A stretch of DNA of 64,000 nt from Gracilaria domingensis (lineage: Eukaryota > Rhodophyta > Florideophyceae > Gracilariales > Gracilariaceae). The notes under the pieces are model-generated. The model had not been told where the DNA came from and made no database searches. It saw only the letters and a program-made list of their open reading frames with translations. Every line of letters starts with the position of its first letter. The first letter of the stretch is position 1. The stretch lies in assembly GCA_022539475.1 (NCBI GenBank), contig VCMS01000220.1:29854-93853 (forward strand). Reading direction: 5' to 3'. Below are positions 38,325 through 62,578 of the stretch, piece by piece. The position numbers were made by a program, and so were the translations under genes.

Positions 38325-39205
38325 ACATTAAGGGCTCCATCCTCTACATGTTCACCTTGTGGTGCCTTTTCTTGTGATCCTGTGTTACTTCCGAAATCGT
38401 TCATGTCCATTTCCTTAAACTCCATATCCCCTTCCTCGCATTCACCAACGAAACAATCGCTAATAGACCCCAATCTTCGGCTCACACTGTCAATAAAAAA
38501 TTGTTCTTTCACAGTGAGGTAAAGTCTTCCGTTCGACGGCATTCGATATCCAAATGTAGCCTCTCTCATGTCATTACCAAGAACCTTAGTCCAATCTTCC
38601 GTTGTCGTTCCAAAATTATGAAACTCGCTGGAATTGGTACTCAAGACACGTTGCCTAACATCCCCCAGAACATTCTTTAAACACAGAGGTAGCAGTTGGG
38701 CAAACGTTTTTGTAAACAGTTTCTGTCTCTGGCCACCCCTTGACACATCCGTACTTAGAAGGCTCACCACCGTCAACACCCAAGCGTCCAAACGTGCGAG
38801 CAACAGTATTGCGCCATCTAAAAAGGTGCCGGTATCCTTGTCTTCCACATCATACCCAATAAACTCCTTCAGTACTTGTACCCCGACACGGTTCCGGAAG
38901 AACAAGTCTTGATCTTCCGTCGGCATATCCTCGATATTGCCCGCATTGGAGTACTTTAGACGAACAAATGGGGCTTTTCTCCACCATGAAGTGTTCGGTA
39001 CACCATTTTCGTCAAGACGCAGTATGTTCTCCTGCGCTTCCTTCAACTGCATTGTGAGTTCGTCAGCATTCTCTTCTACCAGCTTTGTTCTTCTCCAAAT
39101 CAGATCGTACCTAAGGAACAGAAATAGTTTATCCCTCGTATTTCTCTTCCGAAGGTACAGGAAGTGCCGGGAGGAGTGTTTTGGGAGGTCTCCGGAGGGT
39201 GCCAA
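38321..39205 (-). CDS. Unrecognised gene, 5' end truncated at the palindromic block
   Basis: A 294-codon frame whose first 17 codons are just the palindromic repeat read in frame (the same peptide can be read elsewhere in the repeats). The gene-specific part therefore begins near 39150 and the true N-terminus is missing. The remainder is helical and charged: WRRTKLVEENADELTMQLKEAQENILRL, then FFRNRVGVQVLKEFIGYDVEDKDTGTFLDGAILLLARLDAWVLTVVSLL, a Lys/Phe-rich stretch, and an acidic tail. I do not recognise it. It points away from the arm, as does the gene at 62845 on the other side. It could be the distal part of that gene's left-hand counterpart, but the two do not overlap in this window. Confidence 0.5.
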   Translation of the reverse strand: MAPSGDLPKHSSRHFLYLRKRNTRDKLFLFLRYDLIWRRTKLVEENADELTMQLKEAQENILRLDENGVPNTSWWRKAPFVRLKYSNAGNIEDMPTEDQDLFFRNRVGVQVLKEFIGYDVEDKDTGTFLDGAILLLARLDAWVLTVVSLLSTDVSRGGQRQKLFTKTFAQLLPLCLKNVLGDVRQRVLSTNSSEFHNFGTTTEDWTKVLGNDMREATFGYRMPSNGRLYLTVKEQFFIDSVSRRLGSISDCFVGECEEGDMEFKEMDMNDFGSNTGSQEKAPQGEHVEDGALNV

Positions 39206-39563
39206 AAAATCGTCCAGAACGTGCCCGCGGGCGGGGGGGGGTGTCAGTCGTGTTAGGGTACCTATCCTAACACGACCGGACCCCCCCGCCCGCGGGCACG
39301 TTTTGGACGATTTTTTGAAAAATGTGCGATTTTATGCCCGCGGGTGGGGGGGTCCGGTCGTGTTAGGGTAGGTACCATAACACGACCGACCCCCCCGGCC
39401 CGCGGGCACGTTTTGGGCGATTTTTTGAAAAATGTGCGATTTTATGCCCGCGGGCGGGGTGGTCCGGTCGTGTTAGGGTACCTACCCTAACACGACCGAC
39501 CCCCTCCACCCGCGGGCACGTTCTGGCCACATTCCGGCGCCTTCCCGGGACCTCCCAAAGCAC
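39159..39563. repeat. Nested palindromic block, left
   Basis: A foldback of about 400 bp. The outer arm AGGAAGTGCCGGGAGGAGTG recurs inverted, diverged, at the far end. Inside are three palindromes with a core of GTTAGGGTACC/GGTACCCTAAC flanked by CGTGT, Gn runs and CCCGCGGGC. These are separated by spacers reading TTTTGGACGATTTTTTGAAA. It lies between divergent genes. Confidence 0.85.
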
Positions 39564-39843
39564 GCTGCGGCGCAGTGATTTCGCTACACCCGGCCGCCGG
39601 TACGTTGGCGCCGCTGTCCACGTGTATTGGCGGGAGTAGGCTGTACATGGAAGTGAATGAGTGTACTCTTGACTACTACGCAAAGCATTTGAAGAGCATG
39701 ATTAGAGAGCGCGACCATTGCTCGCGTGAGTCATCATTGCGCGAACTCCACGACTCTAAAGCGTACAATCAGTGTGCGAGCGGCCACGGACAGGACACGG
39801 ACGAGACTGGCAGTGCGCTGGGAGGAGCTGCCGAAAGCGAGGG

Positions 39844-39875
39844 TGCCCAGCGTAAGTCGCCATTTAAAGGCTCGC
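39844..39875 (+). promoter_or_regulatory. Shared promoter block, copy 1
   Basis: TGCCCAGCGTAAGTCGCC followed by ATTTAAAGGCTCGC. The TTTAAA box (39863-39868) is 77 bp before the ATG of the ParB-like gene. The same block occurs at 61452-61483 (minus) and 62791-62822 (plus). Confidence 0.7.
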
Positions 39876-39944
39876 ATCCGTTCTTGTATCGTCCAGAGCG
39901 AGCGTATTGTTGATATACACCTTTCACTGCAATAGCGGTTGAAC

Positions 39945-41660
39945 ATGAAGCCAACTCGTGTTCGAAAGCGTACGCAAAGCGTGACTCCTCGCACTCGGCG
40001 GAGCACTCGATTATTGCAAGGTGGAATGCGGGTTTCTCTGCAGATGGATATTGAGAATGAAGGAAAGGTGATAGTCGGGGAAGCGTTGTTGCATGGAATT
40101 GGAAGTGTTCTACGCCGCGAGTTGCACGGGAAGCAATTGGACCCAGGTCTTGTGGTGGTTCATAATATTCTCATCAGTCGAAGCGGTCAGACGTTCTACC
40201 CTTACCGGGCGGAGGGCCTGAATCTTCCACAATATATCCAGGATCTCCGGACGGCCGCTCCTTGGGATGAGAAAATGATGAAACCGGTGTCAGCCAGCAT
40301 TCCGGCGTCGAAGCGAGGAACGGTGAGCGCTATGAGTGAGGTGATGACGCCGACAAGCCGCACGGAGCCAATTCGAAGTTCATCAACACCGAGAGGTAGC
40401 GCATCAGTAGCACCTCCGCGGGCAGGTCCGTCGTCTGTTACGAAGCGGTCTATGGAGACGAGAGCATCCCCAGCTACGAAGCGGACAGGTCAAACAAAGT
40501 CTACCTCCGCTACGAAGCCCACTGCATCGAAAAGGGCATCTCCTGCGATGAATCAGACCGTCGACACAAGCGGATCTTCTGCGTCGAAACAGACGGTTTA
40601 GCAGGGGACGGCTGTGCAAGAGGATAAAGATGAGATCATGAAAGGTCCCCTTCCAGACGCGGATGCGCAATCCGCACAAGGAGCTGGTCCATCTGTACCC
40701 CAAACTGCACCAGAAACTGCGGAGCAGCAGGACGATGACGTTGTGCTTCTGTCCACAAGAATGGCACGTTCAAGTGTTTCTGGCGAGCGGTCTGGAACAC
40801 AAGGGACACCTACTCGGAGCAAGACGTACAGACGAATTCGTCAGAAGGTACCAAAGGTGAACCTCAATCAGTACCGGATGGTTGTTGTTACTGTTGACAT
40901 CACTCTGGTGGACACTCTGCCCAATTTACTCCGTGGAGTAAGTAAACGCCACGTTGAAGCCCTTGTGAAGAGTATGGAGGAGCGGGGGATATTGCAGTCG
41001 ATGGGTTCTCCAGTGGTGGCCTTACAAGATGCTACTACGGGAGAGAGGGATACTGACAAGGGACGCCTAACGAAGAAGTGCTTCATTGTAGATAGTTTGC
41101 ATGGTCTGAAAGCTATACAATATTTGGCAGCGACTGGTGCACCGAAGTGGAAGCGATTAGCCAAGTTTTGGCGTTGCAATCTGCTGATACGAAGAGATGG
41201 GAGGCCCATTGGGATGAAGGAATTGTTATGTGTTGCTTCGTACCTCAATGAGTCGACGAGTACCATGCGAAGGATGATGTTTGCAGACAAGATACACTCT
41301 ATAGTTAGTGTGGTCGCCATTCTAATTGAAGATGTTGAGGGGGTGACGCCGGCAGACGTGGATCCTGCAGAAGTGACAGAAGTGTTGAAGGAGAGCCAAC
41401 TGATTGGGACTGTGCAAGAGCTTCAGTACCTCAGATATGCCAATGTCGCCCTGCAACTCATGTCTCGTGAGGGAATGCTGGCCCATTTCGAGGATATATG
41501 TGAGACTGTGAGTGACATAGGTCTCACACATCTGTCCCATACTCCGCTATATATTTTGGATGCCGAGGAGTTTTCCTTCATTCTTGATTGTCTTCAGATG
41601 TTTCTATTGAAGGGCAAGTCGACAAAGACAAAGCAATGGAAAAGCTTTGAGGAGGTTTGA
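39945..41660 (+). pseudogene. ParB-like domain protein, left copy (nonsense mutation)
   Basis: Left-arm copy of the intact 571-codon gene at 59667-61382. It starts at ATG 39945 after the shared promoter. The frame is broken once: a TAG at 40599-40601 where the right copy has CAG (C to T). Everything after the stop remains open to TGA 41658-41660, including the ParB-like segment. The lesion is therefore recent and this copy is probably inactive unless the stop is read through. Domain description is given under the intact copy. Confidence 0.7.
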
Positions 41661-41681
41661 GGTTTCTTTTATGATAGAGCA

Positions 41682-43445
41682 GTGTCTCTGTTCCGCGCGG
41701 CTCGGGCAGTGAGGAATGAACTGAACGAGGAAGAGTCCATGGAAGTGTTCCTGAAACGCGAAGTCAGTCTTTCTGCTCCATCGAATGAAGATGACGTTGA
41801 AGACCCAGACAACAACGCAGCTGTGTATCAGTTCCTTTTGGGACAAGTTGTGAACTTCAACACATTGCCGCGTGTTCGGAGCAGGACGAACTCAATTAGT
41901 ACTGCCACGACTTCCGTTCAGAATCGATTGCGGACGATGCTCAAGGTAATTCCGCCCCCCGCACCAGTGAAGCAGTCCGTGACGAAGAGGAGGACTCCCG
42001 CTGCTGCTGCTGCAACATCTGCCAGTGAAGAAGGGGAGCCGCGAAGAAGTGCACGAGAACGGGCGCAGGTGAGTTATAGGGAAATTGAGCACGGCAGAAA
42101 TCGAGGTGCCATAGAAGTTCTGGATAGCTCTGAAGAAGAACAGCGGGCTCCGCCGAGGAAGAAACGGAGAAAGACTTTCACACAACAGATGAGATCTACT
42201 CTGAACAGCATGACACCGGATGACCTGATGTCTCAACTAAATGAACATGTGCTGAGAGGAAGGTCGATGAAGGTTCAGTTCGTGGCATTGGGAGAGGGAG
42301 CGAATGCAGAGAACGCAGGCAGTTCTGCATTTGTGGATGACGATGAGCTTCTTTCTGTGACAGTTCCACGGGTTGTCACCGTCGAGAAAGATGCTGCGCC
42401 AGACGATCAGCAAGAGACAGGTGGGGGGTCATTTGATGACGAGTTACCTACAGCTCTTCCGGAATATGAGGAGCACGGACTTGTTCGAGGTGACCCATAT
42501 GATGGCCCACCGAACCCATCATGGTGCGGGTATGCCAGGCTGAGACCGCAGGAATGGCAAGGGAAGAACGTAATTGAGCACAAGGACCCCTGGCTCAGAG
42601 TCATTCACTTGCCGAAGGGACATAGGTCGGAGCTGCTAAGTGTCTCGAATCTCAGAGATGTACACCATCTTGTCTTTTGGCACGCTGCAAGGGCTGAACA
42701 TCGCCTACGGGCGGAGACATTTGGTATGCAGTATCCTCGTACTCGACCGACAGGTATGGATGATGAAGAGGTGCTGTGGGTTGCTGCGAAGGAGCATGAC
42801 GAATTTGGGCAAATGTTCTTCGCCCGAATGCAAGCTGAGCTAAGGCAGAATGGATATTGCGTGCTTGATGGCTTTGCGATGGATAATGGTGTCCCTAAAT
42901 GGGAGGAGTTGGAAGAAGTTCCGGAGTTCGGAGATGTGTCGGGGAAGTTGGTGGACTTCTTCGAGAATGAGTATGGAGCGATGCCCGATATACGGAAAGG
43001 AGAGGAACAGAAGTCGTTTGTTCAAATAATCAACGATGATGAAGGATGGAAGGACGGTAGCGATGGACCATTTGAGGGGAGAGTGATGTCGACAAGTTGG
43101 GGTACGGTGGAGAAGCCGGAGGATAATGAGGAGCTCAGGTGGGTTGTAAGGTCGCGTGCTTTACTTGATGTTCGAATGGGTACAATTGCTGCGGCTTTAA
43201 GACTATGGGACAATGAAAGGGAAGCTGTGAAGATGTACACTCCGAAAACTGGTGGTCGATTTCTGGGGACGACGAGAAAGTGGAAGCGCCAGACGCTGCA
43301 CACCGACTTCAGTGGTCTGGTTACGAAGGAAACAATGAATACTGGCAACCCCGGATACTTTGTAATGGCCTCTGGGAAAGAGAGCTTTCCTCTCTGGGTG
43401 AGCGCTGGAGCGCACAGGATGAAAGGAGCCATTTTCGCTTCATAA
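41682..43445 (+). pseudogene. 2OG-Fe(II) dioxygenase-like protein, left copy (C-terminus deleted)
   Basis: A 587-codon frame following the ParB-like frame by 21 nt in the same phase. The first in-frame ATG is at 41739. Residues 1-290 are disordered and charged, with a basic patch PPRKKRRKTF (a possible nuclear signal) and an acidic linker. The catalytic half begins near 380 (FARMQAELRQNGYCVLDGF) and reaches the HxD motif HTDFSG at 540. It then leaves the gene at a deletion junction after WVSAG, losing the distal His and Arg seen in the right copy. It therefore cannot bind iron or co-substrate and is a truncated copy. Confidence 0.7.
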
Positions 43446-43469
43446 ATGACGTGAACGGGTTCTATAGCT

Positions 43470-43810
43470 TCACTCGGATTGCCATAATTAAAAGGATGGA
43501 GTTCGGTTGCGCCCGAATACGTCTATAAAGGTCGTAGAAGCACTTATGAAGGAAGGTGTAGACATGTTATTGTTGATGACGATGGAGCCAGGGTTTGGAG
43601 GACAGGCGTTTATGGAGGGCGTTCTTGATAAGGTGCGACATGCAAGGGAGTTGTACCCAGAATAGGGATACAGGTGGATGGCGGTATTGAACTGAGTACT
43701 GTGAAAGGAGTAGTGAAGGCCGGTGCAAACATTTCAGTTGCAGGATCTGCCATCTTTGGCTCGAGTAACCCAGCTCGTGTCATAGCTGGTTTTCGAAAGA
43801 TTGGTTAGAG
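43470..43810 (+). pseudogene. Ribulose-phosphate 3-epimerase C-terminal fragment, left copy
   Basis: Carries the epimerase motifs RPNTS, LLLMTMEPGFGGQAFMEG, QVDGGIELSTVK and GANISVAGSAIFGSS, but with a frameshift near 43500 (shared with the right copy) and an additional one-base loss near 43660 (CCCAGAATAGGG). No N-terminal half of the epimerase exists in the arm. It is a captured gene piece, non-functional as an enzyme. Confidence 0.8.
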
Positions 43811-43849
43811 ATAGTAGCATAAATTTATTGTTTATTACATTGTTACCTT

Positions 43850-44240
43850 TACGTGTTATCACGACTATATTCTCCGTCTTCATTGGAGATGTATTCCTCT
43901 TGTATCACAATCAGTCAAGGATGTCAGAGAACATCAATATATCCCCAGTGGACGCTGAGAGGGAGGATGAACTGCTCTACGTGCTATCATTGTTACCCAT
44001 CCGGTCGAGTGGTGACATATTCTTTCTTTGTCACAACCCACAAAGGATGTGACGGAAGAAGAACATGCCCCCAGTCGAGACAGAGGGTGAGCAACTCTAA
44101 GTACAATCACTAGTCCCTAGCTTGCCTCCACTGGCAATATCTTCCTGTTTTGCTATAACCATCGAGTGGGGTTATGGTGGAAGAGAAAAATATCGCCGGT
44201 CGAGGCGAGGTGGGTGGGGATTATGTGAGCGCGAAAGAGG
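43850..44240 (+). repeat. Three diverged tandem units of about 125 bp, left arm
   Basis: Units start near 43850, 43980 and 44099. Each reads roughly: GTG.TATCA..., an ATATTCT/ATCTTCC block, a TATCACAAC/TGTCACAAC box, AAGGATGT, CCCCAGT.GA, and ends GAACTGCTC or GCAACTCTA. The mirror image is at 52760-53098. They lie upstream of the coiled-coil gene. Confidence 0.6.
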
Positions 44241-44446
44241 AGACAGAGAGGTGGCGCTCAAATAGTGGAAGGTGCGGAGGTGTACAGTAGATGTTTTGGC
44301 GGGAAATGGGATGAGGGAAACAGGGACAATCATGGTGCTGGATATAGCGCGTGTGGTTGGACAGTGGGGGTGGACAGCACAGTTTAGCTCGATTGCACTG
44401 TATCGCAGCGGAAACTTCGATCCAACTACTACTTCTTCTTCTGAAG

Positions 44447-45376
44447 ATGTCGAACGGATACGTGAAGAATGAGGAGCTGTTGGCGCTGTTGGAGGGGAAG
44501 GAGGTACCGCCGACGCCGTCACCAAAGCGGGAAGAGGACGTGATTACGGCGGCTGGTCGGATGTCGCAGAAGAAGGAAGTGGCTGATGAAGGAAAGAAGT
44601 GTGAGGCGAGGAGAGGGGATGGTGATGAGGTGGAGAAGGGTGTAGAATTGGAGGTGGAGGGGGTCGCAATGGAGAGAAGGGGTGCGGTGCATCTGAGTCA
44701 GTTAGAGGTTGGAGACCAGATAGAGAGTGAGGGCGGAGAGGGTGACAGGGAGATGCGGTTTGTGGGGGAGATGAAGGCGAGAGTGGAGATGTTGGGGTTG
44801 GTGATGAAAGAGCAACTGGACGATGGAATTGTGGAGATTGTAACGGAAATGGGCGGTGTGGTGCTGAGTGGGGGTGGTAGTGGTGTTTCGGTTGAGGCGA
44901 TTTCGAGCCTGCGGAATTCGTTGTCGGTATTGAGAGTGGAGATGAGAAATCATGTGTATGGGATAGTGGAGTGTGCGGGAAGGGAGGTTGGAGAGTTGCG
45001 GGAGGAGAATAGGGTTCTGAACGAGAGGTTGGACGTGCTGGAGAAGGAGGTGAAGGAGCTGTGCAAGAGGAAAAGATTGGTGGAAGAGGAGACGGTGAAA
45101 GGAGGTGTGGAGGGAAAGACGGAGAAGGGAAGTGTGGGAAGGGTGGCGGTGCAGAAGGGGTCTCCTGTGACACCGAAGACAAAGGGTGGTGGGGTTGGGG
45201 ATGGGAAGAGCCGTCTGAAGAAGAGGCGTAAGGAGAGGAAGAAGCTGGTGGAGGAGGTGCCGCGGGAGGGAGTCGGAGCTCCGGTGGTGACTGGGTTTAG
45301 GAGTGCGGCGGAGGTAGCGCGGACTGCGAAGGGGATTCTGAGGGGACAGGAGGAGAGAAGGATGGGAGGGATTTGA
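44447..45376 (+). CDS. Coiled-coil protein of the duplicated unit, left copy
   Basis: 309 residues from the first ATG (44447). It is very rich in Glu, Lys, Gly and Val. A central heptad region (SSLRNSLSVLRVEMRNHVYGIVE, then VGELREENRVLNERLDVLEK) predicts a coiled coil at about 155-210. A basic C-terminal stretch follows (KSRLKKRRKERKKL) that could bind nucleic acid or target the nucleus. The layout, coiled coil plus basic tail, resembles structural or ORF1-type proteins of mobile elements, but no homology is recognised. The coding strand is strikingly purine-rich, which creates long spurious frames on the other strand. It is intact in both arms, unlike the enzyme genes. Confidence 0.65.
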   Translation: MSNGYVKNEELLALLEGKEVPPTPSPKREEDVITAAGRMSQKKEVADEGKKCEARRGDGDEVEKGVELEVEGVAMERRGAVHLSQLEVGDQIESEGGEGDREMRFVGEMKARVEMLGLVMKEQLDDGIVEIVTEMGGVVLSGGGSGVSVEAISSLRNSLSVLRVEMRNHVYGIVECAGREVGELREENRVLNERLDVLEKEVKELCKRKRLVEEETVKGGVEGKTEKGSVGRVAVQKGSPVTPKTKGGGVGDGKSRLKKRRKERKKLVEEVPREGVGAPVVTGFRSAAEVARTAKGILRGQEERRMGGI

Positions 45377-45859
45377 AGCCGTTTTGGGACGAGGCGGGTA
45401 TATGAGAAGGGGGAGGGTTGTCCACCTGAATTCTACAAAATGACGTTTGCGGAGACGGAGAGAGAGGATGCGAACGCGTGATGGGCGAGAAATGGGTAAA
45501 TAGCGGGGGTGGTGTGGACTGGGAAGAAGTGATGGGATGATTGAGGTGGGATGAGTTGCGATTGGCATTCCAACATGGGAGAAAATGGAAACGCAAACTA
45601 GCACGAGTGCAGTTTTGAGAGAGGGTCGCGGAAAAGAGTGAATGGGGTGGTGCGGCGAAGTAGAACCTCTACAAAAACTAGGGGACCCAAGAACTAAACT
45701 GCGCGAAATGGAATTTAATATTCCAAAATTTCTTAATTTTTTGAGTGCCAGCCTCTGCTACCCCCTAGCGCGCCCCAAATAGCCCCAAAACTAGCTTAGT
45801 TTCCAAAGCGAACAGACTATATTCTACTTTGCAGAACATAGACGATATGTCGTCAATGC

Positions 45860-48220
45860 CTCTGACCATATCGTCGTGATTTCTTCGAATGAGAACCTGC
45901 AGGGAGCTCGCTCACATACTGCTTATGAGGACATCCGGCTCGTGCCTGAGTCATCGATACTCGCCGAGCTCGACAAGCAGGAACTTGGATAGGATTCCTT
46001 CCCTACTTATCAACCGACCAGCCAGGAAGTTGAGGTAGTGCATATGGAACTTGATACCCAGGATGAATTCTTCGTCTTCTGTCCTCATCTCAGACCTCAT
46101 TCCTGCGGCCTTCAATGTTCTCCACCCACTAGGATTTGAAGCTCAACCTCTCGAGGAACCGAACCTGTGGTCTCTGCAACCTCTCTCTTGTACCCTCCTG
46201 TTTCGTAATTCTCGTCTTATCGATGCATCCTGTCTTGACGTTGGGGACTCCTTGCTTCAGAAAGATATCGGGAGCACGCCGGTGCGTTTCCCAATTAATG
46301 GCGAAGGACTCCAGTCGTCCGAGCAGAGGTCTCTCCAGGAGGTCAAGTCGGTCATTGGAGACCAACTGGTTTCGGAACACAAACTAAAATTCGCCCCGCG
46401 ATGGATTATCGAGAAGGCTACCGGTGCTGAAAGGCGCAATTAGGTTGAGGCGGAAGCATATAAGCCCGTTTCTATCCGAAGTTTTCCTCGAACTGCCAAT
46501 GTTATCTCGTCACATCACTTTTTCGTACTCAAGTAAGAAAGTTGGCTTTGCTTTGAAACATGACAAAGGACCCAAGGCAGTTGAGAAAAGCAAGAAACTC
46601 TCTACTGTCTCGGCTGGTGCTCCTGTGTACGTCTATCGTGATTCATCTACGAGTTGAGAGGGACCATTCAATTTCATTCATCTTGAGGGAGAAACGGTCG
46701 TAGTTCAGCTTCCTTACGCGAGAAGGATTTTCCGTTCAAACGTAGTGAAAGCCGCTACTGGTTCAACATCAGTCCTGGAGGTGAGCAAAAGGGTACGGGT
46801 GAACTCACCAAAGAGAAAGTGGAGGAAGGGGTAATGTTCTCGTCTACCGACGTTCTCACTGCTTTGTTTGGCGAGCCTACATATACTACTGATTTGTCAA
46901 ATTCGAGTGAAGTCCATGACTTTAGGAAATACAGAGAGAAAGAATTGAAAGGGCTACTCGCTCGTGGAACATTCGAAGAAGTGGATGTGGATTCTATTCC
47001 TGATGGAACGAGAATATATGGGTCACGATGAGTCGATGCATTGAAGACTCTAGACGGAAAGGTCACTGAGAAATCCAGATTGGTACCCCAAAACTACCGC
47101 GATAGAGGTGCTCTTGATATTGCTACCAAGTCTCCGACTGTCAGTAGTCTCGCTCAGCGAGTTGCATTTGTGCTATCTGCAATGACTTCGGGACATCCAT
47201 CGTACATACGTGATACCTCTCAAGCGTATATACAATCGGAGTCACTGATTGAAAGGAAGATCTATCTCCGCCCACCATCTGAGCTCGGACTCTCGCCCCG
47301 AAAGGTATTGCGAGTAATGAAACCACTCTATGGTATCCCAGAAAGTGGGTTGCATTGGTTTCTTACATATCATGGTCACCATATTCATAAGCTCAATATG
47401 ACAACTACAAGAGGCGACACTTGCTTACTGTACAATAGAAATGAGAAGGAGCTAGAAGGAGTGACTATCCTTCAAGTCGATGACTCATTTGGTCATGGAA
47501 CACCACGCTTTCTTGACGATGAAGACCGAGAAGCTGAAAAGTTCAAGTCTAAGCCACGCGTAAATTGAAGAATGTAGAATCATCAACCTTCAATGGGGTA
47601 ACGATTCGTAAGAATTCTGAGGAGGGGCTTCAAATTCTACAGAGTGACAAGCTTCGTGCCTTCAAGATTCCAGAGTCTCAGTCCGAATTTGCTAGCGTAC
47701 TTGCTCAAGTTCAGTACATTGGCTGTTGCACACGCCCGGACCTCTGCGCTGCTGTTCAGCTTCTGGCAAGTTCAGTCACGAATCCTTTGCCAACACACTA
47801 CCGCGCTATGAAGAAAGTAATTGAAAGGTGTCATGAGACAGCTGACGTCGGTTTGAAGTTTGTGCCGCTTAACTTGGAATCGAATTAACTCGTGCTATTT
47901 ACGGATTCATCTTTCGATAATGCAGACGGTATGAAGTCGCAGTTGGGATTTGTATTGCTGCTTGTTGATGGCAACAATCACGCTAATATCATTGATTATG
48001 GCAGTGCACGATGCAAACGAGTTGTTCGAAGCGTCATGGCTGCTGAGATACACGCTCTCCTGTTCGGTTTTGACAGCGCCTTCGTTGCTAACGATATATT
48101 AGACCTTCATCGCAGTTTTGTTGCAATATTGTTGTTGCATGGTGAAATACTAAGTTACATAGGTTTTCTACGAGGAATATCAGTAAATATTAAGTTGCGT
48201 ACTTTTCTGCTGTCGTAATT
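45860..48220 (+). mobile_element. Ty1/Copia relic in the spacer
   Basis: Plus-strand pieces in Copia order. The integrase C-terminus near 46590-46740 reads VYVYRDSSTS.EGPFNFIHLEGETVVVQLPYARRIFRSNVVK. An RVT_2-type RT spans 47040-47568 (VTEKSRLVPQNYRDRG, YIRDTSQAYIQSESLIERKIYLRPPSE, MKPLYGIPESGLHWF, VDDSFGHG). RNase H spans 47640-48110 (QSEFASVLAQVQYIGCCTRPDLC, LVLFTDSSFDNADG.KSQLGFVLLL, AAEIHALLFGFDSA). Several stops and frameshifts; dead. No LTRs recognised. Confidence 0.8.
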
Positions 48221-52759: not shown

Positions 52760-53098
52760 TCTCTTCCACCATAACCCCACTCGATGGTTATAGCAAAACA
52801 GGAAGATATTGCCAGTGGAGGCAAGCTAGGGACTAGTGATTGTACTTAGAGTTGCTCACCCTCTGTCTCGACTGGGGGCATGTCCTTCTTCCGTCACATC
52901 CTTTGTGGGTTGTGACAAAAAAAGAATATGTCACCACTCGACACCGGAGGGGTAACAATGGTAGCACGTAGAGTAGTTCATCCTCCCTCTCAGCGTCCAC
53001 TGGGGATATATTGATGTTCTCTCACATCCTTTCCCCGTTGTGATACAAGAGAAATACATCTCCAATGGACACGGAGAATATAGTCGTGATAACACGTA
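52760..53098 (-). repeat. Three diverged tandem units of about 125 bp, right arm
   Basis: Mirror copy of 43850-44240, lying between the coiled-coil gene's upstream side and the epimerase fragment. Confidence 0.6.
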
Positions 53099-53139
53099 AA
53101 GGTAACAATGTAATAAACAATAAATTTATGCTACTATCT

Positions 53140-53480
53140 CTAACCAACCTTTCGAAAACCAGCTATGACATGAGCTGGGTTACTCGAGCCAAAGATGGCA
53201 GATCCTGCAACTGAAATGTTTGCACCGGCCTTCACTACTGCTTTCACAGTACTCAGTCCAATACCTCCATCCACCTGTATCCCTATTCTTGGGTACACCT
53301 TCCTTGCATGTCGCACCTTATCAAGAACACCCTCCATAAACGACTGTCCTCCAAACCCTGGCTCCACCGTCATCAACAATAACACGTCTACAACTCCTTC
53401 CTTCATAAGTGCTTCTACGACCTTTATAGACGTATTCGGGCGCAATCCAACTCCATCCTTTTAATTATGGCAATCCGAGT
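53140..53480 (-). pseudogene. Ribulose-phosphate 3-epimerase C-terminal fragment, right copy
   Basis: A 101-codon open stretch (53140-53445) with RPNTSIKVVEAL, LLMTVEPGFGGQSFMEG, IQVDGGIGLSTVKAV and GANISVAGSAIFGSS, all diagnostic of the (beta/alpha)8 pentose-phosphate epimerase and covering its phosphate-binding loops and a catalytic Asp (VDGG). Upstream, IAIIKRM continues the family pattern in a different frame, implying loss of one G in ATGG(G)AG; the left copy shares this lesion. The N-terminal half, with the other catalytic Asp and metal-binding His residues, is absent. It is a captured and inactivated host gene fragment. Confidence 0.85.
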
Positions 53481-53841
53481 GAAGCTATAAAACCCGTTCA
53501 CGTCATTTATGAAGCCAAAATGGCTCCTTTCATCCTGTATTCAAGCTCCCCGTAACCCGTACTTTACAACTACTTTACAACTCAGGTTCGAAATCAGTTT
53601 CCACCTCTTCCACCTACCTTTCATAAAACATCATCACACTTTGTGGCTTGTCGTCTCATACAAGCCCTATCATTCATTCAGTACAATCACATATCATACA
53701 TTTCGCTCACTTTCACAAAGTGAACCATGTTCCCGTTCTGCGCTTCCCAACCGTTTGTACTTAAGTATCACTCTTTACCCCAGCAGTTCTCCGCCCCATC
53801 TTCCATTTCTATCGTCACACAAAAACATTCGAACACTTGCA

Positions 53842-54744: not shown

Positions 54745-55370
54745 GGTTAGAACACATGACTTTTCGGTGTTGTAAACCTTTTAGAGATAGTTAAACATAA
54801 AATTTACTTTATCGAAATGACCTGTTCCTATTACATTACTTATATTGTTCGTTCTTCTGTGGTTCAAATATGCCCCTTTAAATCCTACATCCCTTATCAC
54901 TAATACCTGGCTAAATTTTTGCTAGATGGAAAAGGGTCATTCCACATCATTAAAGTGCACGATACTAGTAGGGAAACAAGTACAAAATTGTGATATTTCT
55001 GAAGAACTAAGCGTTTGCATTACTTGGGGCACCCGTATAAAGTAAGGTAACCCTTTTATGGGTTTCAACCTCTAATGGAGATTGTTTTACTCTTCTTGAT
55101 TTCCAAGCTCATGTTAAAGATATTTACAGTTTTCTTTACCCACTTGAACCCGTACATATAATTTATGACTAAATCATCCTTTCTTTACTTCAAATCGATG
55201 CAAAAACTTCTCCTCCTAGTAACGTTTTAAAACAGTACTACAATACCCGTATATGGTCGTTCTTAGACTCTTTTTATACTACGAAACACCTTGTGAACAT
55301 CAATCACATCCTTCTCATTCGTAGACCCACACCCATTTGCAAAACTAACCCTTTCGAAATCTTTCAAAAC
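54745..55370. other. AT-rich intergenic region
   Basis: No gene supported. A TTTTTATAC box near 55271-55279 is a plausible TATA element for the HAD-like gene that follows. Confidence 0.4.
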
Positions 55371-56243
55371 ATGTATAACTCAGAAGTTAGAGCCCAAGAA
55401 GTAACTCCTCAGCAGCTGGCTAACGAAATATTCGAAAATGGCTACGCCGTGATTAGTGATGTTGACGGTACTCTGAAAAGAGCTGGGGAGAACATTCCTG
55501 CCGAAACAGTCAAATGCATGAAGTACATCAACGCACGCGTTGGTTTCGGAATTGCTACTGGGCGAGATATAGAGGATGCCGAGAGTTTCATGGAGCACCT
55601 GGGTGGCTACACTTTTGGCATCTCTGGAAACCAAGGCGCACGGGTGAGATTATCCAATGGTACCGAAATTGATCAGGACCTTGACAGGGAAGGCTACGAA
55701 AGATGTGCAGCCGAACTTGAGAGACTTGCACTCTCCTTAAATGAATCGCACGGACTTCACGAAGAGCGTCAACAAGCAGTGGTGAGCACTAGAAAAGACA
55801 GTGGACTCCCTAACTTCACGTACAATGGACTGTCGAAGTGGAAAACAGAAGTTAACTCCGGTATTTCAAAAGTGTTGACATCCTTTCCGAACCTGGTTGC
55901 GTACCCTCAAGATGAAAACTGTGACATAGGGGACATTCGTTTCACGAAAAATAGTGGGGCGCTAGCCTTGGTTGAAAACGACCCCCAGTTCGACACATAT
56001 TTAATCGTTGCTTTCGGGAATGCTTCCAATGATGGCCCTCTATATGAAATGGCAACCCTGACAGTTCATGTGAAGGGAGAAGACCATCCAGCGGCGGTAA
56101 CATATCTTGTTGATGGGGTGGAGGACGTGCATGAGACCATCAGAAGGGTGGCAGAACTGTACGGGTACAGAAAATGCAAGTGTCAAAGGTTTAGAAATGC
56201 TCTTGGAATTTGTTTCAAGTGCTACGATGCCTTTAATACTTAG
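55371..56243 (+). CDS. HAD-superfamily phosphatase-like protein (Cof/trehalose-phosphatase-like)
   Basis: 290 residues from ATG 55371. HAD motif I is AVISDVDGTLKRAGE (nucleophile and acid/base Asp both present). Motif II is FGIATGRDIED. GISGNQGARVRLSNG is the cap entry. A Lys-containing cap region and motif IV-like FGNASNDGPLYEMA follow, then VHVKGEDHPAAVTYLVDGVEDVHETIRRVAEL, as in the C-terminal part of Cof-type and trehalose-6-phosphate phosphatases. A sugar-phosphate phosphatase is the best functional guess. It ends in a short Cys-rich tail. AATAAA lies at 56264-56269. Convergent with a diverged paralogue 52 bp downstream. Confidence 0.75.
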   Translation: MYNSEVRAQEVTPQQLANEIFENGYAVISDVDGTLKRAGENIPAETVKCMKYINARVGFGIATGRDIEDAESFMEHLGGYTFGISGNQGARVRLSNGTEIDQDLDREGYERCAAELERLALSLNESHGLHEERQQAVVSTRKDSGLPNFTYNGLSKWKTEVNSGISKVLTSFPNLVAYPQDENCDIGDIRFTKNSGALALVENDPQFDTYLIVAFGNASNDGPLYEMATLTVHVKGEDHPAAVTYLVDGVEDVHETIRRVAELYGYRKCKCQRFRNALGICFKCYDAFNT

Positions 56244-56295
56244 CTATGATATGATATCTCAGTAATAAAAGTGTCGTGTATATCTCAATACCCTT

Positions 56296-57207
56296 TTATG
56301 AATCATGGTGGTTTTTATCGTGCTGCTTTTCCTCGTAGCCGTACAACAGAGCCACCAACATAATTGTCGAATGTACATCCTCCACGCTTTCGAACAGGTT
56401 GTGTACTCCACCCGGGATACAATCTTCTTTGACGTGAACGCCGTACACGCCTACCTCATGCAAAAGCCCGTCGCTCAAAGCACTTCCGAACGTCACGACG
56501 TCATCCGTATCAATAAATCTCGGTTCATTATCCACAAGATTTTCTCCTCCGCTTCCTTTTGTGTATCGCTTGTCCACAATTTCGCAACTTTTATCGCCGG
56601 GATAGATAACAAACGCATCCATCTTCTGCAACAGGTCCCCAATAGCAGAATCCACTTCTTCTTTCCACTGCCACAGTTTGTTGTACACGAAATTGGGAAG
56701 GCCACTATCACTTCTGGTCTCCACGAACCCCTTGTCATCATCATTCACAATACCATGCCTCCTATTCAAATCCCTTGCCAGGAACAGTAGTCCGTCAACA
56801 GTGTGGTCAAGGGTGTGATCATTGAATGCACCCTTAATTTCCCTCTCGTCAGAGAAACGCAGGAAAGCTCCATGATTCGCCGAGACACCAAACTTATAGT
56901 CTCCGAGTCCTTCCATTTTCCCCTCCACGTCGCCCACATCACCCCCTGTGACAAGTCCGAAACCAACACGTTCGTCAATGAACTTCATACACTTCACAAC
57001 TTCTTCTGGAATTGACTCTCCTTCTCTTCTCAACGTTCCATCAACGGAACTTAATATACCGTAACCATTGGCATATATGAACTTAGACAAGGTATTTGGT
57101 GAAATTTCCGCCAAGTCTCTCTGTTCCTCTGCCATTTCTCCTGATACCGTCACCATACTGCCACAAGTACCGCATAGACAGGAACTGTATAGGCTTCTCA
57201 GTTTCAT
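56296..57207 (-). CDS. HAD-like paralogue with lost catalytic residues
   Basis: 303 residues, tail to tail with the gene at 55371 and alignable along its length. The key motifs are eroded. Motif I reads GILSSVDGTLRREGE, so the nucleophilic Asp is Ser. Motif II reads GLVTGGDVGD (Arg lost). Motif IV reads FGSALSDGLLHEVG. Cap features such as RSDSGLPNFVYNKLWQWKEEVDSAI are retained. The fold is probably kept but phosphatase activity is not expected; a ligand-binding or regulatory partner role is possible. Several alternative N-terminal Met codons exist (57207, 57156, 57135); the first is used here. The Cys-rich N-terminus (SSCLCGTCGS) is only present with the long start. Confidence 0.75.
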   Translation of the reverse strand: MKLRSLYSSCLCGTCGSMVTVSGEMAEEQRDLAEISPNTLSKFIYANGYGILSSVDGTLRREGESIPEEVVKCMKFIDERVGFGLVTGGDVGDVEGKMEGLGDYKFGVSANHGAFLRFSDEREIKGAFNDHTLDHTVDGLLFLARDLNRRHGIVNDDDKGFVETRSDSGLPNFVYNKLWQWKEEVDSAIGDLLQKMDAFVIYPGDKSCEIVDKRYTKGSGGENLVDNEPRFIDTDDVVTFGSALSDGLLHEVGVYGVHVKEDCIPGGVHNLFESVEDVHSTIMLVALLYGYEEKQHDKNHHDS

Positions 57208-57465
57208 ACTTCTCTTAAAAGCAACCTTAAGTGCAGTTTCAGAAATGCGCTACATGTTCAATTGCGAATTGACTGGTGCCACCAATTATGTTAACGATAC
57301 CGAGCATTTGGCATCTTGCAATTAGACGCAACTGGACCAAAGAAGTTTGACATTTGTTCAATTACCAGCCTGCTGCACCTTTTCTATGTTCATATGTATA
57401 GCCTTGTAATAGTATACTACTCTTAGTACTCGCAAGACACACATAATTTACTAATCATCTCATTC

Positions 57466-59645
57466 TCATCCACTTCGAGGCGCTCGCAGCCTCATTATTG
57501 GCAAATCGTCATCACTACTACTCTCGAGCACTTCGGTTCTACCGGCGTCCGCTTCCACACCAATCTCCACGACCACTTGGTCTTCGTCCATGTCAACCGC
57601 CCCACCCTCCTTATCGGACAACAGTTCATCCTCCGCCTCCTCCTCCTCGTCACCATTGACAAACGTGGGTCGGAAATCCCGCACCCGATGAACAGCATCA
57701 GGTAGTGCGTAGCCCTCTGGTACCATGTACATGTGGTATCTAACCAGCAAATCCATAGACTCGGGCCTATCCACCTTGTCCTTCCCACTTGCTCCAGCAT
57801 GTGTCACATCACCACGGCCCACGAATACAGAGTACGGTGGGATGATTATCTTCTTCGCTGGATACACCTCCGACATCACTCGCAACTGTTGGTTGTTCAT
57901 CCCCACCAGTTGATGGCTTCCAGCGCTCACCCAGAGAGGAAAGCCCTCTTTCCCAGAGGCCATTACAAAGTATCCGGGGTTGCCAGTATTCATTGTTTCC
58001 TTCGTAACCAGACCACTGAAGTCGGTGTGCAGCGCTGGCGCTTGCACTTTCTCGTCGTCCCCAGAAATCGACCACCAGTTTTCGGAGTGTACATCTTCAC
58101 AGCTTCCCTTTCATTGTCCCATAGTCCCAAAGCCGCAGCAATTGTACCCATTCGAACATCAAGTAAAGCACGCGACCTTACAACCCACCTGAGCTCCTCA
58201 TTATCCTCCGGCTTCTCCACCGTACCCCAACGTGTCGACATCACTCTCCCCTCAAATGGTCCATCGCTACCGTCCTTCCATCCTTCATCATCGTTGATTA
58301 TTTGAACAAACGACTTCTGTTCCTCTCCTTTCCGTATATCGGGCATCGCTCCATACTCATTCTCGAAGAAGTCCACCAACTTCCGCGACACATCTCCGAA
58401 CTCCCGAACTTCTTCCAACTCCTCCCATTTAGGGACACCATTATCCGTCGCAAAGCCATCAAGCACGCAATATCCATTCTGCCTTAGCTCAGCTTGCATT
58501 CGGGCTAAGAACATTTGCCCAAATTCGTCATGCTCATTCGCAGCAACCCACAGCACCTCTTCATAATCCATACCTGTCGGTCGAGTACGAGGATACTGCA
58601 TATCAAATGTCTCCGCCCGTAGGCGATGTTCAGCCCTTGCAGCGTGCCAAAAGACAAGATGGTGTACATCTCTGAGATTCGAGACACTTAGCAGCTCCGA
58701 CCTATGTCCCTTCGGCAAGTGAATGACTCTGAGCCAGGGGTCCTTGTGCTCAATTACGTTCTTCCCTTGCCATTCCTGCGGTCTCAGCCTGGCATACCCG
58801 CACCATGATGGGTTCAGTGGGCCATCATATGGGTCACCTCGAACAAGTCCGTGCTCCTCAGATTCCGGAAGAGCTGTAGGTAACTCGTCATCAAATGACC
58901 CCCCACCTGTCTCTTGCTGATCGTCTGGCGCAGCATCTTTCTCGACGGTGACAACCCGTGGAACTGACACAGCAAGAAGCTCTTCGTCATCCACAAATGC
59001 AGAACTGCCTGCGTTCTCTGCATTCGCTCCCTCTCCCAATGCCACGAACTGAACCTTCATCGACCTTCCTCTCAGCACATGTTCATTTAGTTGAGACATC
59101 AGGTCATCCGGTGTCATGCTGTTCAGAGTAGATTTCATCTGTTGGGTGAAAGTCATTCTCCGTTTCTTCCTCGGCGGAGCCCGCTGTTCTTCTTCAGAGC
59201 TATCCAGAACTTCTATGGCACTTCGATTTCTGCCGTGCTCAATTTCCCTATAACTCACCTGCGCCCGTTCTCGTGCACTTCTTCGCGGCTCCCCTTCTTC
59301 ACTGGCAGATGTTGCAGCAGCAGCAGCGGGAGTCCTCCTCTTCGTCACGGACTGCTTCACTGGTGCGGGGGGCGGAATTACCTTGAGCATCGTCCGCAAT
59401 CGATTCTGAACGGAAGTCGTGGCAGTTCTAATTGAGTTCGTCCTGCTCCGAACACGCAGCAATGTGTTGAAGTTCACAACTTGTCCCAAAAGGAACTGAT
59501 ACACAGCTGCGTTGTTGTCTGGGTCTTCAACGTCATCGTCATTGGATGGAGCAGAAAGACGGACTTCGCGTTTCAGGAACACTTCCATGGACTCTTCCTC
59601 GTTCAGTTCATTCCTCACTGCCCGAGCCGCGCGGAACAGAGACAC
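57466..59645 (-). pseudogene. 2OG-Fe(II) dioxygenase-like protein, right copy (1-bp deletion)
   Basis: The only copy that preserves the full catalytic region. The frame at 59645-57990 covers the disordered N-terminus, basic patch and GYCVLDGF start of the catalytic core. A one-base loss near 58044 (CAGCGCTG against CAGACGCTG on the left) shifts it into the frame 58047-57466. That frame carries HTDFSG (HxD iron ligands), LWVSAGSHQLVG, IIIPPYSVFVGRGDVTHAGA (distal His) and LLVRYHMYMVP (Arg for 2-oxoglutarate). Order and spacing fit the double-stranded beta-helix 2OG dioxygenase fold, closest in style to phytanoyl-hydroxylase-like members. An acidic Ser-rich C-terminus follows. The substrate is unknown; protein or nucleic-acid hydroxylation are both possible. 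Confidence 0.7.
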
Positions 59646-59666
59646 TGCTCTATCACAAAAGAAACC

Positions 59667-61382
59667 TCAAACCTCCTCAAAGCTTTTCCATTGCTTTGTC
59701 TTCGTCGACTTGCCCTTCAATAGAAACATCTGAAGACAATCAAGAATGAAGGAAAACTCCTCGGCATCCAAAACATAAAGCGGAGTATGGGACAGATGTG
59801 TGAGACCTATGTCACTCACAGTCTCACATATATCCTCGAAATGGGCCAGCATTCCCTCACGAGACATGAGTTGCAGGGCGACATTGGCATATCTGAGGTA
59901 CTGACGATCTTGCACAGTCCCAATCAGTTGGCTCTCCTTCAACACTTCTGTCACTTCTGCAGGATCCACGTCTTCCGGCGTCACCCCCTCAACATCTTCA
60001 ATTAGAATGGCGACCACACTAACTATAGAGTGTATCTTGTCTGCAAACATCATCCTTCGCATGGTACTCGTCGACTCATTGAGGTACGAAGCAACACATA
60101 ACAATTCCTTCATCCCAATGGGCCTCCCATCTCTTCGTATCAGCAGATTGCAACGCCAAAACTTGGCTAATCGCTTCCACTTCGGTGCACCAGTCGCTGC
60201 CAAATATTGTATAGCTTTCAGACCATGCAAACTATCTACAATGAAGCACTTCTTCGTTAGGCGTCCCTTGTCAGTATCCCTCTCTCCCGTAGTAGCATCT
60301 TGTAAGGCCACCACTGGAGAACCCATCGACTGCAATATCCCCCGCTCCTCCATACTCTTCACAAGGGCTTCAACGTGGCGTTTACTTACTCCACGGAGTA
60401 AATTGGGCAGAGTGTCCACCAGAGTGATGTCAACAGTAACAACAACCATCCGGTACTGATTGAGGTTCACCTTTGGTACCTTCTGACGAATTCGTCTGTA
60501 CGTCTTGCTCCGAGTAGGTGTCCCTTGTGTTCCAGACCGCTCGCCAGAAACACTTGAACGTGCTATTCTTGCGGACAGAAGCACAACGTCATCGTCCTGC
60601 TGCTCCGCAGTTTCTGGTGCAGTTTGGGGTACAGATGGACCAGCTCCTTGCGCGGATTGCGCATCCGCGTCTGGAAGGGGACCTTTCATGATCTCATCTT
60701 CCTCCTCTTGCACAGCCCTCCCCTGCTGAACCGTCTGTTTCGACGCAGAAGATCCGCTTGTGTCGACGGTCTGATTCATCGCAGGAGAAGCCCTTTTCGA
60801 CGCAGTGGGCTTCGTAGCGGAGGTAGACTTTGTTTGACCTGTCCGCTTCGTAGCTGGGGATGCTCTCGTCTCTATAGACCGCTTCGTAACAGACGACGGA
60901 CCTGCCCGCGGAGGTGCTACTGATGCGCTACCTCTCGGTGTTGATGAACTTCGAATTGGCTCCGTGCGGCTTGTCGGCGTCATCACCTCACTCATAGCGC
61001 TCACCGTTCCTCGCTTCGACGCCGGAATGCTGGCTGACACCGGTTTCATCATTTTCTCATCCCAAGGAGCGGCCGTCCGGAGATCCTGGATATATTGTGG
61101 AAGATTCAGGCCCTCCGCCCGGTAAGGGTAGAACGTCTGACCGCTTCGACTGATGAGAATATTATGAACCACCACAAGACCTGGGTCCAATTGCTTCCCG
61201 TGCAACTCGCGGCGTAGAACACTTCCAATTCCATGCAACAACGCTTCCCCGACTATCACCTTTCCTTCATTCTCAATATCCATCTGCAGAGAAACCCGCA
61301 TTCCACCTTGCAATAATCGAGTGCTCCGCCGAGTGCGAGGAGTCACGCTTTGCGTACGCTTTCGAACACGAGTTGGCTTCAT
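59667..61382 (-). CDS. ParB-like domain protein of the duplicated unit, intact copy
   Basis: 571 residues from ATG 61382. The first 95 residues are compact and basic at the start (RVRKRTQSVTPRTRRSTRLL). Residues about 105-300 are low-complexity Ser/Thr/Ala/Lys repeats (KRASPATKRTGQTKS-like). The C-terminal 270 residues are globular. There, KRHVEALVKSMEERGILQ (about 334) followed by CFIVDSLHGLKAIQYLAATGA (about 380) and MKELLCVASYLNESTS resemble the ParB/sulfiredoxin nuclease fold pattern (helix, then IVDG.HR..A). This assignment is tentative. ParB-like proteins bind or cut DNA or use CTP. The gene starts from the shared promoter at 61452-61483 and is followed in the same frame, after one TGA, by the dioxygenase. 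Confidence 0.6.
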   Translation of the reverse strand: MKPTRVRKRTQSVTPRTRRSTRLLQGGMRVSLQMDIENEGKVIVGEALLHGIGSVLRRELHGKQLDPGLVVVHNILISRSGQTFYPYRAEGLNLPQYIQDLRTAAPWDEKMMKPVSASIPASKRGTVSAMSEVMTPTSRTEPIRSSSTPRGSASVAPPRAGPSSVTKRSIETRASPATKRTGQTKSTSATKPTASKRASPAMNQTVDTSGSSASKQTVQQGRAVQEEEDEIMKGPLPDADAQSAQGAGPSVPQTAPETAEQQDDDVVLLSARIARSSVSGERSGTQGTPTRSKTYRRIRQKVPKVNLNQYRMVVVTVDITLVDTLPNLLRGVSKRHVEALVKSMEERGILQSMGSPVVALQDATTGERDTDKGRLTKKCFIVDSLHGLKAIQYLAATGAPKWKRLAKFWRCNLLIRRDGRPIGMKELLCVASYLNESTSTMRRMMFADKIHSIVSVVAILIEDVEGVTPEDVDPAEVTEVLKESQLIGTVQDRQYLRYANVALQLMSREGMLAHFEDICETVSDIGLTHLSHTPLYVLDAEEFSFILDCLQMFLLKGKSTKTKQWKSFEEV

Positions 61383-61451
61383 GTTGAACAGCTATTGCAG
61401 TGAAAGGTGTATATCAACAATACGCTCGCTCTCGATGATACAACAACGGAG

Positions 61452-61483
61452 GCGAGCCTTTAAAAGGCGACCTACGCTGGGCA
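61452..61483 (-). promoter_or_regulatory. Shared promoter block, copy 2
   Basis: Minus-strand version of the block at 39844-39875 with a TTTTAAA box, driving the intact ParB-like gene. Confidence 0.7.
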
Positions 61484-61486
61484 CGT

Positions 61487-61600
61487 GTTAGGGTACCTAC
61501 CCTAACACGACCGACCCCCCCCCCCCCGCCCGCGGGCACGTTCTGGCCACATTCTGGCACCCTCCGGAGACCTCCCAAAACACTCCTCCCGGAACTTCCT
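61487..61600. repeat. Partial palindromic block
   Basis: Half of the foldback: a GTTAGGGTACC/GGTACCCTAAC core, a C-run, GCCCGCGGGCACG, then the outer arm ending CTCCCGGAACTTCCT. It directly abuts the promoter block. Confidence 0.8.
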
Positions 61601-61759
61601 GTACCCACTGCGTCACCTTAGTGCACCATCCCGTCATCTTCACCCTCCAGACACTCCCTAAAATCCGGGATGGTGCACTGAGATGACCATCCCGTCTTCT
61701 CCACCCTCCAGAGACTCCCTAATTTCCGGGATGGTTCACAGAGGTGACGCAGTGGGTAC
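61601..61759. repeat. Linker foldback, copy 1
   Basis: Starts GTACCCACTGCGTCACCT and ends with its complement AGGTGACGCAGTGGGTAC. Inside are two tandem units of about 62 bp (CACCATCCCGTC...TTCCGGGATGGTG), each with its own inverted ends. Same structure at 62110-62268. Confidence 0.8.
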
Positions 61760-62109
61760 AAGAAGTGCCGGGAGGAGTGTTTTGGGAGGTCTCCGGAGAG
61801 TGTCAAAAAATCGTCCAAAACGTGCCCGCGGGCGGGGGGGGGTCGGTCGTGTTAGGGTAGCTACCCTAACACGACCGGACCACCCGCCCGCGGGCATAAA
61901 ATCGCACATTTTTCAAAAAATCGTCCAAAACGTGCCCGCGGGCGGGGGGGGGGGGGGGTCGGCCGTGTTACGGTAGGTATCCTGTTACTCGTGTTAGGGT
62001 AGGTACCCTAACACGACCGAACCCCCCCCCCCCCCGCCCGCGGGCACGTTCTGGACGATTTCTTGGCACCCTCCGGAGACCTCCCAAAACACTCCTCCCG
62101 GCACTTCCT
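61760..62109. repeat. Nested palindromic block, right 1
   Basis: A complete foldback with AGAAGTGCCGGGAGGAGTG outer arms in inverted orientation, two GTTAGGGTA palindromic cores, G/C runs and TTTTTTGAAAAATGTGCG-type spacers. A short insertion-like break lies near 61975-61995. Confidence 0.85.
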
Positions 62110-62268
62110 GTACCCACTGCGTCACCTTAGTGCACCATCCCGTCATCTTCACCCTCCAGACACTCCCTAATTTCCGGGATGGTGCACTGAGGTGACCATC
62201 CCGTCTTCTCTACCCTCCAAACACTCCCTAATTTCCGGGATGGTGCACTGAGGTGACGCAGTGGGTAC
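62110..62268. repeat. Linker foldback, copy 2
   Basis: Near-identical to 61601-61759, with the same GTACCCACTGCG...CGCAGTGGGTAC ends. The alternation block-linker-block-linker-block shows tandem amplification. Confidence 0.8.
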
Positions 62269-62578
62269 AGGAAGTGCCGGGAGGAGTGTTTTGGGAGGTC
62301 TCCGGAGGGTGTCAAAAAATCGTCCAAAACGTGCCTGCGGGCGGGGGGGGGGTCGGTCGTGTTAGGGTACCTACCCTAACACGACTGGACCCCCCCGCCC
62401 GCGGGCACATTTTGGACGATTTTTTGAAAAATGTGCGATTTTATGCCCGCGGGCGGGGGGTCCAGTCGTGTCAGGGTAGGTACCCTAACACGACCGACCC
62501 CCCCCGCCCGCAGGCACGTTTTGGACGATTTTTTGACACCTTTCGGAGACCTCCCAAAACACTCCTCCCGGCACTTCC
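62269..62578. repeat. Nested palindromic block, right 2
   Basis: Starts AGGAAGTGCCGGGAGGAGTG and ends CTCCTCCCGGCACTTCC, with two GTTAGGGTACC-type cores. It is followed by CAGTGATTTCGCTGCAC, which also follows the left block at 39570, so block and downstream promoter region travel together. Confidence 0.85.

Follow-up and report, generated by a model that had tools for sequence, protein, structure and literature searches.

Two facing, damaged copies of a giant Plavaka-type DNA transposon probably account for a large inverted repeat in the red alga Gracilaria domingensis

Giant EnSpm-type transposons with accessory genes, and transposons with ParB and methyltransferase cargo, have already been reported in algae. 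For example, red algae contain giant EnSpm elements that carry several accessory genes (Petroll et al. 2025, cited in PMC12477816), and the 21.5-kb element Sola1-1 of Ectocarpus carries a ParB-like domain and an N4/N6 methyltransferase as cargo (PMC12477816). Plavaka elements belong to the CACTA/EnSpm-Mirage-Chapaev-Transib group, and TET-carrying Plavaka elements are described in fungi (Kojima 2025, PMC12730594). In addition, giant repeats of the Plavaka type are known from Amoebidium (PMC11244446). Here we analyze a stretch of 64,000 nucleotides from the florideophyte red alga Gracilaria domingensis (contig C220, VCMS01000220.1, positions 29854-93853; hereafter the window), in which a set of genes recurs in mirror image. 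Our results indicate that the mirror image very probably consists of two broken copies, in opposite orientation, of a giant (~22.8 kb) cut-and-paste DNA transposon of the Plavaka type.

The element resembles the fungal Plavaka elements in its Plavaka transposase, its 2-bp target-site duplication (TSD), and an oxygenase cargo, which some of the fungal families also have (PMC12730594). It differs from them in its red algal host, its far larger cargo, and the joining of the oxygenase to a ParB-like part. The termini published for fungi are TGT..ACA (PlavakaA) and CATCA..TGATG (PlavakaB) (PMC12730594), whereas those found here are CGTCTG..CAGACG; if the former are taken as marks of two fungal subgroups, the latter would be a new terminal type. 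Set against TET/JBP-carrying transposons, the putative oxygenase is recognized here by 2-oxoglutarate (2OG)-type motifs, and any kinship with TET/JBP is tentative. Many genes of the Amoebidium repeats are tyrosine recombinases, unlike here, and the terms ParB and adenine methyltransferase are absent from the main text on those repeats (PMC11244446). Sola1-1 shares the ParB-like domain and the N4/N6 methyltransferase, but it is a Sola transposon in which both belong to one fused protein, whereas in the present element the methyltransferase stands by itself and the ParB-like part continues into the 2OG part. As represented in the citing paper, the giant EnSpm elements of red algae share the host group, the transposon group, and the possession of accessory genes (PMC12477816), and a fusion of ParB-like and 2OG parts beside a divergently placed methyltransferase may or may not have been described for them already (Petroll et al. 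2025). Literature searches that did not include Petroll et al. 2025 found nothing on TET/JBP with ParB and a transposon, and nothing on transposable elements in the G. domingensis genome. What the present element brings together, within one DNA transposon family and between short terminal inverted repeats (TIRs), is a DNA methyltransferase, an oxygenase, a ParB-like part, a SET protein, and genes of metabolic type.

Element coordinates (e1 = window position 51132) refer to a chain built from the second window copy and two loci of contig C91 (L049 and L051), minus C91:117055-121499, with the right terminus at e22815 (Table 1). The Plavaka, N6_N4_Mtase, and SET genes lie in one contiguous 10-kb stretch of L049, where the transposase matches the Pfam family Plavaka (PF18759) at 1e-18, with 68.1 bits against a cut-off of 26.3. 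Its ratio of nonsynonymous to synonymous polymorphism (pN/pS) is 0.20-0.28 against seven copies, indicating constraint; as for all such ratios given here, the loci are few, were best matches to the query, and were projected on the reference frame. No relative was found at E <= 1e-3 among 5.8 billion proteins, of which the 8000 with the most words in common with the query were scored, and no solved relative was found in the PDB. With the transposase domain and the 2-bp TSD both present, the element is, as judged from sequence, a member of the Plavaka DNA transposons, although a first-pass annotation of the window had held that it matches no known class.

Table 1. Coordinates of the two transposon copies in the window and of the genes of the reconstructed element
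Feature	Window position	Element position	Strand	Remarks
Transposon copy 1	37639-45844		-	Left terminus at 45844, reads leftwards; mapped to element coordinates
Transposase C-terminal remnant, copy 1	37639-38320		+	97.96% to L049:3983-5496, end of transposase open reading frame (ORF)
Accessory coiled ORF remnant, copy 1	38321-39205		-	Beside transposase
Three further 26-bp palindromes, copy 1	39249, 39359, 39469
Left terminus, copy 1	45817-45844		-	Begins CGTCTA
Spacer	45845-51131			Patchwork of repeat pieces, copia reverse-transcriptase fragment; outside element
Transposon copy 2	51132-64000	e1-12869	+	Left terminus at 51132
Left terminus, copy 2	51132-51159		+	CGTCTGTGTTCTGCAAAGTGGAATATAG
Coiled-coil-type ORF	51570-52595	e439-1464	-	341 aa from start codon; arm 1 counterpart 44351-45376 (+)
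NAD(P)-binding, oxidoreductase-like gene	53509-54744	e2378-3613	+	GRGRIG motif; copy 2 only
HAD hydrolase gene 1 (HAD1)	55293-56243	e4162-5112	+	PF08282, 1.3e-12
HAD hydrolase gene 2 (HAD2)	56296-57207	e5165-6076	-	PF08282, 1.5e-4
2OG-Fe(II) dioxygenase-like part	57466-59645	e6335-8514	-	HTD ... THAG ... RYH motifs; frame broken in copy 2
ParB-like part	59667-61382	e8536-10251	-	Box decayed
Intergenic palindromic region	61484-62578	e10353-11447		Five 26-bp palindromes CGTGTTAGGGTANNTACCCTAACACG at <=3 mismatches
Promoter-like segment	62740-62832		+	Upstream of divergent gene at 62845
Divergent ORF	62845-63438	from e11714	+	197 aa; divergent to ParB-2OG
Methyltransferase frame		to e14124	+
SET		about e14080-14849	+
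Coiled ORF		about e14889-17492	+
Plavaka transposase		e17489-20791	-	1100-aa ORF

The ends of the element recur throughout the genome. The left terminus, 5'-CGTCTGTGTTCTGCAAAGTGG, is constant while its flanks differ in the eight places first read, copy 2 of the window among them, and the base-for-base match of the inner ends of the mirror image, pointed out at first pass, turns out to be this true terminus. The right terminus, 5'-CGTCTGTCTCTTGCAGATGCTAG, was located at L051:137. Together they form short, imperfect TIRs (CGTCTGTGTTCTGCA / CGTCTGTCTCTTGCA), and the element as a whole reads 5'-CGTCTGT...ACAGACG. At <=2 mismatches, the assembly contains 570 left and 553 right ends, compared with no match for either pattern when reversed. 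A mobile, multigene unit with constant ends, as had been proposed, is therefore borne out by these ends and their 2-bp TSDs, and with so many ends in the genome, neither a single occurrence of the arms nor a plain segmental duplication lacking other copies or constant ends applies. Single copies with both ends and a TSD exist, however, which contradicts the view of the inverted repeat itself as the mobile unit.

The TSDs were counted in 27 end pairs for which the flanks of either end were read, with the lengths at C62 and C69 estimated, C17 and C108 left out (right end and left end, respectively, not found), and one of two candidate left ends, neither with a TSD, counted at C54. A 2-bp TSD flanks 13 of the 14 pairs shorter than 16 kb (chance 2.9e-15). 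Among pairs longer than 16 kb, this is so in just 2 of 13 (21,352 and 20,150 bp, known from their ends) and the TSD is absent in 11 (Fisher p 7e-5, short versus long), which counts against our interpretation in that a complete 22.8-kb copy derived from one insertion is unproven. In one of the long pairs, a nested insertion accounts for the missing TSD. The right junction of this insertion lies at C23:34522-34552, inside the 2OG gene of another copy, and the left end that belongs to it is found, together with the remainder of the interrupted gene, at C296:118155-118192 (2 mismatches). The TSD is GA, and the empty site is preserved in the window's own 2OG gene (58640-58710), so that the terminal CG belongs to the TIR. 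The separation of its halves may stem from an assembly join or from recombination, and the other long pairs that lack a TSD would have the same cause. As an observation in its own right, the split between C23 and C296 may point to mis-joins in this assembly, or to exchange, where repeats are long.

Element copies fall into size classes. Based on zero-mismatch places only (all 100 left ends listed, and 91 of the 100 right ends listed), 47 of the 100 left ends could be paired, giving lengths of 6.4-24.3 kb with a median of 13.2 kb; 14 of the 47 measure 9.9-11.3 kb and another 14 at least 18 kb, and a shorter-copy class of 10.1-11.2 kb exists. Multiplying the mean length by 560 yields ~8.2 Mb of element DNA, roughly a tenth of the 77.9-Mb assembly, which is an estimate only because long pairs may be mis-joined. 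An internal gap at e3697-5439 is common to four loci (L010, L012, L014, and L016), suggesting that deleted copies themselves multiplied, with transposase supplied in trans.

Within the window, self-comparison aligned three pairs of segments in opposite orientation: 39843-43409 with 57919-61484 (98.5%), 43414-45443 with 51503-53538 (96.8%), and 45472-45844 with 51132-51504 (96.8%). The spacer between the arms measures 5287 bp, in agreement with the 5.3 kb given at first pass, and the 571 codons of the ParB-like stretch differ at 11 positions, including one at which arm 1 has a stop; about a dozen differences had been reported. The mirror-image duplication is real to this extent, but its arms are unequal: 4380 bp (53539-57918) are found in arm 2 only. 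Encoded in this segment are the NAD-binding protein, both HAD proteins, and the C-terminal portion of the 2OG protein, so the "epimerase fragment" once placed on both sides exists on one. Most of the 4380-bp segment recurs in at least 34 genome places, and the ParB-like, coiled-coil, and palindromic-block stretches in at least 40 each, own places included; the counts are lower bounds from the candidate places scored. Given these further copies, the inverted pair is not a chance sequence.

Palindromic repeats do lie toward the outer side of each arm (39154-39571 and 61484-62578), but they are internal rather than element ends. The element continues beyond them, through 62845-64000 in arm 2 and to 37639 in arm 1, and 62600-64000 and 37640-39100 each recur in at least 40 places, own included, so the palindromes were rejected as termini. 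With single TSD-flanked copies also at hand, a foldback or giant inverted-repeat element was rejected as well. Position 37639 (e18174) is likewise no terminus, because it falls inside the transposase gene; beyond the equivalent point, all seven other loci read differ from the window. Copy 1 is thus truncated, perhaps through a retroelement, unless the latter arrived afterwards, and it also lacks e2407-6788 and about e11442-16661. Copy 2 is cut at base 64000 by the end of C220, a contig of 93,853 nucleotides. The spacer consists of pieces of older repeats: it matches over its full length at its own place only and elsewhere in pieces (best 40 of 77 candidates scored), and it contains an RVT_2 match (2.4e-7) slightly short of the Pfam cut-off. 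A search of 37600-64000 against Rfam gave no match.

In all likelihood, then, the mirror image represents two neighboring, damaged copies of one transposon that lie in opposite orientation, left end to left end, and the arrangement would reflect chance or a local hop. A density of 570 left ends over 77.9 Mb would, at random, yield about 5.5 facing pairs no more than 5.3 kb apart; none occurred among the 100 left ends listed, which cover the early part of the genome, with the window pair outside their reach. The arms might instead be the product of one event, a recent local duplication or fold-back in which one was copied from the other. Comparison of eight copies gives this some footing, since the ParB box is decayed and the ParB-2OG junction interrupted by a stop in both arms but in none of the six other copies, and since the two arms group together in the ParB-2OG region (support 100/99). 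Yet the two arms have separate left termini that differ in their flanks, and the 4380 bp of arm 2 are missing from arm 1. Furthermore, the arms are 97.1% alike in the left-end region, compared with 97.6-98.2% between arm 2 and seven other copies, and across ParB-2OG the copy L002, on another contig, matches arm 1 more closely (99.0%) than arm 2 does (98.7%). The common changes may mark a broken subfamily from which both arms came, or a local hop, and we regard duplication of one arm as improbable. We assign a similarly low probability to an assembly artefact, in which element-bearing contigs were mis-joined into an inverted arrangement. The mostly missing TSDs of the long pairs, the insertion divided over C23 and C296, and the fact that C220 itself stops inside an element all fit a mis-join; on the other hand, both inner junctions are ordinary left termini beside non-element sequence, and the path from copy 1 through the spacer to the start of copy 2 would not need to cross a full-length element.

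Behind the 197-aa ORF of copy 2, an open frame corresponds to the start of the L049 methyltransferase, the remainder lying beyond the contig end. In L049, the frame matches N6_N4_Mtase (PF01555, 6.2e-16). The methyltransferase also matches phrog_67 (9.3e-24), and DpnA and CcrM are its nearest solved structures; it is matched by 84 phage records, all below 60% identity (24.5-28.9% in the eight listed). By these matches, it is a bacterial-type N6/N4 DNA methyltransferase. Its phage-like character, together with the many long uninterrupted genes, could suggest an integrated virus, polinton-like or giant, in place of a transposon. We consider this exceedingly improbable, given the Plavaka transposase, the short TIRs, and the 2-bp TSD. 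Moreover, a close-relative search of viral contigs with the 2OG, transposase, and ParB parts came back empty, and the Pfam matches of the genes tested include no capsid or polymerase. The transposon's next gene has a SET domain (Pfam, 2.1e-8, L049) with a weak match to KMT2A (0.0042). The coiled-coil-type ORF has no Pfam family above cut-off and a pN/pS of 0.44-0.50 with eight copies, and HAD2, which matched nothing among plasmids, has 0.40-0.47 with seven. The NAD(P)-binding-like gene shows very weak matches only, to THF_DHG_CYH_C (0.021, L027 copy) and to hydroxyacid dehydrogenases (0.38-0.5).

The ParB-like and 2OG parts form one continuous frame at the junction codon in all six other copies, whereas both window arms have a stop there; the frame of L002 breaks once, further on. 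The dioxygenase-like part carries motifs that we take to be of the 2OG type. The HxD, distal H, and R residues are present in many of the copies surveyed and changed in four loci (L005, L029, L030, and L032). It has no Pfam family and no meaningful sequence match in the PDB, and it is 93% identical to a hypothetical protein of G. domingensis, the sole relative found in protein searches with three element proteins. The assignment of the ParB-like part depends on a match to phrog_3264 (1.3e-3, residues 312-355, L002 copy) and on a box that reads VDGLHR in all six other copies and VDSLHG in both arms. No Pfam ParB match was obtained, the decayed window copy had no relative at E <= 1e-3 among 5.8 billion proteins (the 8000 with the most words in common scored), and further PDB and phage searches gave nothing useful.

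A palindromic block lies between the two divergent element genes, whose promoters have the same core. At <=1 mismatch, the 26-bp palindrome occurs at 1314 genome sites (control 0), compared with ~560 elements; surveyed loci contain 0-6, often spaced by ~110 bp, and 31 of 50 distinct listed sites are enclosed by an end-to-end pair. Shuffled versions of the array at 39234-39571 fold much less well than the array itself (z -12.7). The promoter-like segment recurs at 39793-39885, and its core stands at 61452 (-), before the ParB-like gene. The shared promoter noted at first pass is thereby supported, as the same segment lies upstream of both divergent genes in copy 2 (on the ParB side, the core only), L002, and L007. 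We propose the palindromes as candidate sites for the ParB-like part, although their TTAGGG core could presumably attract a host telomere-repeat-binding factor instead. Palindromic units 79-85% like the element array were also seen at positions 4766-5086 of locus L050 (C108:211000-218000), in a stretch otherwise without a match in the window, perhaps from a related family.

How such an element might persist can be outlined tentatively. Transposase from intact copies would move, in trans, every copy that retains its two termini. The one divergent promoter region with its palindrome array would drive the ParB-2OG protein as well as the methyltransferase, which would bind and modify the element's own DNA, while the SET protein would modify its chromatin, with the outcome that copies stay expressible. 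In its strongest form, which we think rather unlikely, the cargo would be a self-addressing epigenetic module: the ParB-like domain, seated on parS-like 26-bp palindromes in its own divergent promoter, would bring the joined 2OG oxygenase, with the adenine methyltransferase and the SET enzyme, to write or erase marks that keep ~560 copies expressible and mobile. Several observations weigh against such a module in either form. An AlphaFold model of the ParB part from one sequence was uninformative on the fold and was discarded, with a predicted local distance difference test (pLDDT) score of 35. No palindrome at <=3 mismatches is present in L002, although its ParB frame is otherwise good, and 2 of the 19 listed palindromes outside end pairs (C9:490057 and 490164) sit just beyond a left end. 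Finally, pN/pS is 0.91-1.34 for the ParB-like, 2OG, HAD1, and NAD genes, so constraint on the modification module is unsupported; with few loci, biased as best matches to the query, these values show an absence of visible constraint in the copies compared and no more. If the ParB-like part does address modifying enzymes to the palindromes, a eukaryotic mobile element would control its own epigenetic state with a bacterial-type system, and such self-addressing would bear on the origin of adenine methylation in algae.

Other mobile sequences lie near the copies described here. Transposase frames resembling Tc1/mariner, by translations judged by eye, occur to the right of the C91 copy (L051:5836-9503). 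In the window, a Ty3/gypsy element with long terminal repeats (LTRs) occupies 17776-29501, its LTRs (17776-18635 and 28643-29501) being 97.2% alike and its reverse transcriptase, RNase H, and integrase lying in one 1255-aa ORF. A Ty3 capsid-like fragment at 37235-37909 (Ty3_capsid, 5e-4, below cut-off) spans 37639, the truncation point of copy 1.

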